From: Deltaproteobacteria bacterium RBG_13_61_14
Lineage (GTDB): Bacteria > RBG-13-61-14
Assembly: GCA_001797815.1 (NCBI GenBank)
Contig: MGQK01000076.1
Span: forward strand, 43,843-58,693
Length of the DNA stretch: 14,851 bases
Reading direction: 5' to 3'
Under the pieces are notes generated by a model. That model made no database searches. It was not told the DNA's origin and was given only the letters and a program-made list of their open reading frames with translations. The translations under genes and the position numbers were made by a program. The first letter of the stretch is position 1. Each line of letters begins with the position of its first letter. Positions 8,653-11,600 of this stretch are shown piece after piece.

Positions 8653-11600
8653 CTACTTTTTCTTTCTCATCGGCCGGCTGCTGGCCGCGGCCTTTTTGAC
8701 TGCCTTTTCCACCACTTTTTTCGGCGCTGGCTTCTTCACCGGCTTTTTGGCCGGAGCTTTTTTCAGTTGCTTGGCCTTTTTCGGAGCCGGCTTCTTGATC
8801 GTCTTTTTCGCCGGCGCTTTGGCGGCCGGTTTCGCCACTTTCTTGATTGTTTTCTTCACCGCTTTCTTGGCCGTCGCTTTCACTGCTTTTTTCAGGGCCT
8901 TTTTCGCCGGCGCTTTCACCGTCTTTTTCACGACTGGCTTTGCCGCCTTCTTGGCCGGAGCTTTCGCAATCTTTTGGGTTGCCGGCTTGGCGGTCTTGGC
9001 GGCCGCCTTTTGCTGGGCGCTCCTGGCCGCAAAGGGGGCCGTGGGCTTGATCGGGCGGGTCGGCATCTTGATCACCTTGGCTCCCGGGGGCGGGGCCTTT
9101 TTCGGAGTTGCGGCGGCTGGCGCTTCGGCCGCCCCTTCCAACTTTTCTTTTTTCGCCTCGCGGCGGGCTTCCTTTTTCGCCTCGCGCTTGGCCTTTTTCA
9201 TGGCCTCTTCCAGGGCCGCCTGTTCTTCCCTTTCCTGGAGCGCGACATGGGCCGCGGCCATCCGGGCCACCGGCACCCGGTAGGGAGAGCAGCTCACGTA
9301 GTCCAGGCCGATCCGATGGCAGAACATGACCGAGCTGGGCTCGCCGCCGTGCTCGCCGCAGATGCCCACTTTCAGCTCCGGCCGGGCGGCGCGGCCTTTT
9401 TCCACCCCGATCTTCATAAGCAGACCCACGCCCTCCTGGTCAATGGCCTCAAAGGGATCGCGCTTGTAAATTCCCTTTTCCACGTAGCCGGGCAGGAAGC
9501 TTCCGGCGTCGTCGCGGCTCATGCCCAGCGCGGTCTGGGTGAGGTCGTTGGTGCCGTAGGAGAAGAACTCGGCCACGCTCGCCACCTGGTCGGCGGTGAT
9601 GGCGGCCCGGGGGATTTCCACCATGGTCCCGACCAAATACTTGAGCTCGATCTTGTAGCGGGCCATCACCTCCTGGGCGATCTTTTCGGTCCGCTCCCGC
9701 AGGTAGGCCAGCTCTTTCACGTGCCCGACCAGGGGGATCATGATCTCGGGCGTCACCGGCTGCTTGCTCGATTTGCTCACCTCGCAGGCCGCCTCCATGA
9801 TCGCCTGCACCTGCAAGTCGTAGATTTCCGGGAAGATGATGCCCAGCCGGCAGCCGCGGAGCCCGAGCATGGGGTTGAACTCATGGAGCTGGACCACTTT
9901 GGCCTTGAGCTTTTGCGGCTTCACCTTCATCCGCCGGGCCAGCTCCCGGATCTCCTTGTCGGTGTGGGGCAGGAACTCGTGCAGCGGCGGGTCCAGGAGC
10001 CGGATGGTGATGGGCAGCCCCGGCATCTCCTTGTAGATGCCGATGAAGTCGCCCTTTTGCATGGGCAGGATCTTCGAGAGCGCCCGGGCCCGGCCGGCCG
10101 AGTCCTCGGCCAGGATCATCTCCCGCACCGCCTCAATCCGCTTGCCCTCGAAGAACATGTGCTCGGTGCGGCAGAGCCCGATCCCCGCGGCACCGAACTT
10201 GAGACCCTCCAGGGCCTGCCGGGGCGTGTCGGCGTTGCAGCGCACGCCCAGGGTGCGGAACTCGTCGGCCCAGGCGAGGATCTTCTCGAAGTTCTGGAAG
10301 ACCTTGGACTTCGCGGCCAAGAGCTTCTTCTCGACCAGCACCTGCACCACTTCCGAGGGATAAGTGGCGAGCTGGCCGGCGAGCACCTCGCCCGTGGTCC
10401 CGTCCATCGAGAGCCAGTCGCCCTGTTTTAACACCTTGCCCTTGACCTTCATCCGCTTCTGGGCATAGCTGATCTCGAGCGCGCCGGCGCCGACCACGCA
10501 GGGCCGGCCCATCTGGCGGGCGACCAGCGCCGCGTGCGAGGTCATGCCCCCGCGGGCGGTGAGGATGCCCCGGGCCACGGCCATGCCGTGGATATCGTCC
10601 GGGCTGGTCTCCAGCCGGACCAGGAGCACCGGACCTTTCGCCGCCTGCTTCTCGGCTTCCTCGGCCGAGAACACGATCCGGCCACAGGCCGCGCCCGGCC
10701 CGGCGTTGAGCGCCTTGGTCAGGAGTCGGCCGGCGTTGGCGGCCTTTTTCTTCTCGGCCGCGTCAAAGATCGGGGCCAAGAGCTGGATCAGGGCCTCGGG
10801 CTCCACCCGCTTGATCGCTTGCTCCTTGCTGATCAGCCCCTCCTCCGTCATCTCCACCGCCATCCGCACCGCGGCAAAGCCGGTGCGCTTGCCCGAGCGG
10901 GTCTGCAGCATCCACAGCTTGCCGTTCTGGATGGTGAACTCGATATCCTGCATGTCCCGGTAGTGCTTCTCCAGGCGGTTGTAGATCCGGACCAACTGGT
11001 TGTAACAGCCGGGCATGTGCTCTTCCAGGCTCAACTCCTCGGGCCGCTTCTTGTTCTCGTTGTTGATCGGGTAAGGCGTGCGGATGCCGGCCACCACGTC
11101 TTCGCCCTGGGCGTTGGGCAGCCACTCGCCGAAGAAGCGCTTCTCGCCGGTGGCCGGGTCGCGGGTAAAGGCCACCCCGGTGGCCGAGTCGTCGCCCCGG
11201 TTGCCGAAGACCATGGACTGGACGTTGGTGGCGGTGCCCCAGTCCTCGGGGATGTTGTTGAGCTTGCGGTAGGTGATGGCCCGGGGGATGTTCCAGGAAT
11301 CAAAGACCGCGCCGATGCCGCCCCAGAGCTGGTCCAGGGGTTCCAGGGGAAACTCCTTGCCCTCCTTGCGCAGCCGCTCCCGGTAAAGCTGGACCAGGGT
11401 CTTGAGGTCGTCGGTGGACAGGTCGGTATCCTTTGCCGCTTTCTTCTTTTTCTTGTATTCTTCCAGAATGCTTTCCAGGACGTGGCCGGACAGACCCATG
11501 ACCACGTTGGAATACATCTGGATGAAGCGGCGGTAGGAGTCCCAGGAGAAGCGGGGATTCTGGCTGCGCCGGGCCAGGCCCTCGACCGTGTCCGGGTTCA

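Follow-up and report, generated by a model that had tools for sequence, protein, structure and literature searches.

The ppdK gene in the 14,851-nucleotide stretch of Deltaproteobacteria bacterium RBG_13_61_14 DNA analyzed here (the window, meaning the whole of that stretch) encodes a complete PPDK core followed, in the same reading frame, by a lysine-rich, histone H1-like C-terminal tail of 193 residues. Many unrelated bacteria were found to have shorter tails of the same kind on their PPDKs, and this recurrence suggests that the enzyme has repeatedly been given an electrostatic anchor. Both the enzyme and the type of tail are known; their combination is new, has no description in the open literature searched, and forms a recurrent class. 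From sequence comparison, we propose that the tail acts as a C-terminal, electrostatic and sequence-nonspecific tether of active PPDK, most likely to nucleic acid, a reading to which we give roughly an even chance of being correct.

The ppdK gene and its PPDK core

The features of the ppdK region are listed in Table 1. The ppdK reading frame on the minus strand is uninterrupted by internal stops from its Met codon, which lies 32 nt past the glyS stop and is preceded by a Shine–Dalgarno-like GAGGAGGAAGG, to the stop codon at the end of the tail.

Table 1. Features in and around ppdK, in window positions.
Feature	Position	Strand	Basis
glyS (glycyl-tRNA synthetase beta subunit), immediately upstream of ppdK	11979..14117	−	ORF; name by sequence resemblance
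ppdK (1097 aa including tail)	8653..11946	−	ORF reading; Met 11946, stop 8653–8655
PPDK core, complete, residues 1–904	9235..11946	−	TIGR01828, three Pfam domains, 1KBL alignment, AlphaFold/Foldseek
His471 in GGMTSHAA, phosphoryl-carrier His position	10534..10536	−	Invariant in 49 PPDKs; motif shared with 1KBL
Cys863 in CGEHGG, PEP-site Cys position	9358..9360	−	Invariant in 49 PPDKs; motif shared with 1KBL
Tail part 1, charged helical arm prolonging the last PPDK helix, residues 905–940, net +2	9127..9234	−	AlphaFold, composition
Tail part 2, Pro-rich linker, residues 941–984	8995..9126	−	pLDDT <50, composition
Tail part 3, Lys/Ala/Pro H1-like disordered region, residues 985–1097	8656..8994	−	Composition, pLDDT, diverged DNA repeats
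Terminator-like hairpin, 3′ of the tail stop	8605..8630	−	11-bp stem

When the protein was searched against NCBIfam profiles, TIGR01828 matched residues 4–902 with 1303 bits, exceeding the equivalog cut-off of 843, and the Pfam domains PPDK_N, PEP-utilizers and PEP-utilizers_C were all present in the core. The alignment to 1KBL, the solved PPDK of Clostridium symbiosum, spans residues 4–904 and stops there, and an AlphaFold model of the core gave 1kbl as its best Foldseek match, with 54% identity and an rmsd of 2.1. The three domains, the His and Cys motifs and the fold are thus held in common with TIGR01828 PPDKs and the C. symbiosum protein. The core appears to be an intact PPDK without sign of damage, and we infer that it is enzymatically active. 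However, solved bacterial and plant PPDKs stop at about residue 874, and the window PPDK has 193 residues more. The PDRP regulator (PF03618, Kinase-PPPase) was not found in the host genome (95% complete), despite the presence of a PPDK.

A first-pass annotation of this DNA had taken residues 905–1097 for an in-frame addition past the PPDK end. The unbroken reading frame, together with profile and structure matches that stop at residues 902 and 904, supports that assignment, and the tail is confirmed as a genuine in-frame extension, as judged on the assembled sequence alone. Misassembly is unlikely, because the stop codon is followed by a terminator-like hairpin, the only match of its kind on the minus strand within 8380–9300, and because no exact repeat in the tail DNA exceeds 18 nt. 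The tail DNA is also single-copy in the 4.74-Mb assembly and lies internal to its contig (C76). Its antisense strand contains a Phe-rich open frame of 195 aa (window 8696–9283, plus strand), a by-product of lying opposite the Lys codons that can mislead ORF pickers.

Anatomy and composition of the tail

The 193 extra residues (window 8656–9234) include 58 Lys, 50 Ala, 22 Pro and 8 Arg; the 12 acidic residues are all Glu, and the net charge is +54. The earlier counts were exact: the 127 residues from 971 to 1097 contain 45 Lys and one acidic residue, a Glu, and the tail has APAKK four times and KPAPKK twice. Given an assumed background of ≈6% Lys, the probability of finding at least 45 Lys in 127 residues is ≈4 × 10−23. 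The likeness to H1 and AlgP noted in the first-pass annotation also holds, as the tail is rich in Lys, Ala and Pro, has PAKK/KPA repeats and contains few acidic residues.

The tail can be divided into three parts (Table 1). Part 1 is rich in Lys, Arg and Glu, and in the AlphaFold model (49-row alignment, mean pLDDT 85) it belongs to a single predicted helix, residues 888–940, that spans the border between core and tail with a pLDDT of ≈90 or more. The pLDDT falls below 50 across residues 945–1019 and 1025–1097; with low pLDDT as a proxy for disorder, residues ≈945–1097 are predicted to be intrinsically disordered. Part 3 contains the APAKK and KPAPKK repeats, which have diverged at the DNA level. 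No Pfam family matched the tail up to E = 1, NCBIfam gave matches only at E ≥ 0.17, and a homology search for tail homologues in its own genome returned the tail itself and one 13-bit chance match.

Codon bias is weaker in the tail than in the core, with GC3 values of 0.72 and 0.91, respectively; the value for the tail reading frame is the highest among the three forward frames. The tail shares more 9–12-mers than synonymous shuffles do (p = 0.006 and 0.013), and it was therefore probably built by repeat growth at the DNA level, an origin that is compatible with function.

Basic tails on other PPDKs

PPDKs were surveyed in 386 genomes, where the matches listed included ≈150 PPDKs, and those with long open frames were read. 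Basic, Lys-rich tails of at least 14 aa were present on at least 21 of the ≈150 listed PPDKs, from many unrelated bacteria, with lengths of 14–83 aa; the count is a minimum, since reading was confined to the long open frames. A further case beyond the survey count came from genome G014 (locus L106), and additional ones from Spirochaetes, Bdellovibrionota and Omnitrophota. Tail lengths included 83 aa at L133, where KKAPAKK is repeated, 71 aa at L201, 66 aa at both L106 and L202, and 55 aa at L206; L058 and L018 are also among the examples. The first-pass annotation had been aware of no described PPDK of this form, and indeed none with an H1-like Lys-rich tail is described in the open-access literature searched. 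As a one-off, the window PPDK does not stand, since basic tails recur in many unrelated lineages; its tail is, at 193 aa, the longest of those surveyed.

Two genomes of the same order, G001 and G002, were available for comparison. The PPDK of G001, the closest relative whose gene is complete (69% identity), has the normal end KEKLNLEAPD and no tail, so that PPDK can evidently do without one in the host order. The G002 ppdK is cut by a contig end.

The tail was then considered on a tree of PPDK cores, whose 111 rows were partly picked for tails, so that frequencies are not readable from it. The tail label changes 18 times on this tree, and at least 14 of these changes are forced by well-supported branches. 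Judging from the tree, recurrent loss is as possible an explanation for this pattern as recurrent gain.

Nearly all of the PPDK extensions are basic. Among the 29 PPDK extensions of at least 14 aa, 26 were classified as basic, and two of the three exceptions (L211, L215 and L134) likewise end in a Lys-rich stretch. In the families f26, f100, f67 and f52, a basic tail was present in every member read, with identities of 27–52% in the tail versus 71–83% in the core. Retention of charge without retention of sequence is expected if charge matters, and the families thus fit selection on charge. In the tree set, the mean core charge was +6.6 for tailed and −14 for tail-less PPDKs. Co-evolution of core charge and tail was considered on this basis and not adopted, being weakly supported: binary pairs were not significant, contrasts gave p = 0.002, and sister pairs were mixed (9 to 7).

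Another type of tail was seen in family f94 (L152, L157, L158 and L211, from G232, G094 and G361). These PPDKs end in ≈65 residues with amphipathic, SKAE/DAYSKAE-like helical repeats and KKKIKK at the end.

Comparison with enolase and with other genes

Enolase served as a control in the same 386 genomes. None of the 48 enolase C-termini read, comprising the longest open frames and the 30 best, had a basic tail. Tails of at least 30 aa were found on 13 of ≈150 PPDKs and 0 of ≈150 enolases (p = 2 × 10−4, with approximate denominators). With a looser rule for basic C-termini, 14 of 118 PPDKs scored positive, compared to 15 of 543 ORFs beside PPDK (p = 1 × 10−4). This second control errs on the side of caution, as most of its 15 positives look like spurious high-GC frames.

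Samples of 0.3–0.4 Mb from three genomes gave K-rich C-termini in 2 of 242 genes (G000, the host genome), 0 of 294 (G014) and 4 of 364 (G064), and four of these six belonged to ribosomal proteins (S13 and L6 by eye; bL17 confirmed). Since K-rich C-termini were rare in the samples, such tails are no proteome-wide habit in these genomes.

A proposed tether to nucleic acid

DNA-binding proteins and granule proteins are known to have Lys-rich tails of the H1 type; the literature searched describes none on a central carbon enzyme. AlgP and PhaF bind DNA through their K/P/A tails, and in cells that lack polyphosphate kinases AlgP is distributed across the nucleoid (PMC9239181). PhaF has been modelled as a link between granules and DNA (PMC3574117), and nucleoid association of HupB requires its PAKK/KAAK tail (PMC5676037). 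The C-terminal domains of Pseudomonas AlgP and PhaF resemble the PPDK tail in being long, disordered K/P/A-repeat tails on another domain (154 aa in AlgP), a likeness for which we claim no homology, but the domains joined to those tails are helical or bind granules and are not a central-metabolism enzyme. Mycobacterial HupB and actinobacterial TopA, with its lysine-repeat tail, likewise have a Lys-rich H1-like tail on a conserved core; unlike the PPDK core, the HupB and TopA cores themselves act on DNA.

In the proposed tether, the stiff charged helix of residues 905–940 would project the disordered polycationic segment 941–1097, in which most of the +54 charge resides, outward from the enzyme. 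This segment would bind polyanions irrespective of sequence, the likeliest being nucleoid DNA, RNA or ribosomes, and binding would concentrate PPDK at nucleic acid. Arguing by analogy and by elimination, we regard nucleic acid as the likeliest partner; binding, the identity of the partner and the importance of location are all inferences. The observation that the tail was gained (or lost) many times on PPDK, and not on enolase, points to a common spatial or regulatory need. If the tether is real, PPi/AMP metabolism would be tied to the nucleoid or to translation.

Alternative explanations

The main rival to the tether is a near-neutral extension, in which a stop codon was lost and short Lys/Ala/Pro repeats then grew and were tolerated at the exposed C-terminus of PPDK. 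The tail-less nearest relative and the weaker codon bias of the tail are in line with such an origin, as is the excess of 9–12-mers over synonymous shuffles (p ≈ 0.01), which is a sign that repeats grew at the DNA level. However, neutral extensions should vary in charge, whereas 26 of 29 were basic across at least 14 separate changes, whole families retain basic tails, and no tails were seen among the enolase C-termini read. We therefore consider a neutral origin possible but doubtful. An artefact, in which a frameshift or misassembly fused ppdK to a separate Lys-rich gene, would be easier to entertain in a fragmented assembly such as this one (132 contigs, 95% complete), but is highly improbable given the hairpin past the tail stop, the 18-nt limit on exact repeats and the unique sequence internal to a contig; moreover, the predicted helix runs from the core into the tail, and similar PPDK–tail fusions are present in many independent genomes.

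The tail might also have a partner other than nucleic acid. The first-pass annotation had named polyphosphate, whose binding would place PPDK on polyphosphate granules or allow its regulation by polyphosphate. Lys-rich disordered regions do bind polyphosphate (PMC12345225), granule spacing depends on the AlgP C-terminal domain (PMC9239181), and the PPDK tail has lysine density and disorder in common with PASK and other Lys-rich polyphosphate-binding regions. Its acidic and Ser content is too low for a PASK, however, which by definition requires 75% or more D/E/S/K within a window of 20 residues (PMC12345225); the best window in the tail has 60%. Searches of the host genome found no PPK1 and no PPK2; ≈5% of its sequence is missing, so absence is not proven. 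The same two kinases are both lacking from 15 of the 22 tail-bearing genomes, and the proportion with any PPK was similar with and without tails (7/22 and 7/33, respectively; p = 0.53). These results make polyphosphate an improbable partner. Other acidic partners, such as membranes or acidic proteins, or a role of the tail in condensates, solubility or self-association, appear somewhat less far-fetched, although still unlikely. Polycations bind any polyanion, and the cores of tailed PPDKs tend to be more basic (by the contrasts, with sister pairs at 9 to 7), but the bacterial K/P/A-repeat tails that have been studied (AlgP, PhaF and HupB) act on DNA or granules.

Linkage to glyS

A glyS-like gene lies upstream of ppdK in both G001 and G002 as well, and glyS was found immediately upstream of ppdK at 43 of the 124 loci with enough upstream sequence (the window plus 42 of 123), across phyla. 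Linkage to glyS, although suggestive, was rejected as the cause of the tail: it is less common at tail-bearing loci (2 of 14) than at tail-less loci (41 of 110) and therefore leaves the tail unexplained.

The PPDK reaction, pyruvate + ATP + Pi → PEP + AMP + PPi, is reversible, and in reverse it consumes AMP and PPi, both of which are products of aminoacyl-tRNA synthetases. A speculative benefit of the proposed tether could be that PPDK turns AMP and PPi released by these synthetases into ATP. Clostridium thermocellum glycolysis uses PPDK with PPi (PMC8863071). A broader version, in which PPDK would be especially prone to acquiring H1-like tails by convergence and many bacterial lineages would each have anchored it to nucleic-acid machinery, with PPi and AMP from polymerases and aminoacyl-tRNA synthetases converted to ATP locally, seems to us unlikely.

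Other lysine-rich C-termini in the host genome (G000)

The KAPAKK pattern occurs in the host genome only in ppdK (four times) and bL17. The bL17 protein (G000 contig C4, L114:1063–1530) has a Lys-rich C-terminal tail. A ChsH2/DUF35-type Zn-ribbon/OB-fold protein (G000 contig C24, L257:2152–2841) ends in a Lys/Ala/Pro tail of ≈64 residues that resembles the PPDK tail. A longer frame on G000 contig C92 ends in a possible 19-codon ORF, MAKKAKKKPAKKAAKKKKR (L251:2269–2325), which may encode a small basic peptide or be due to chance.
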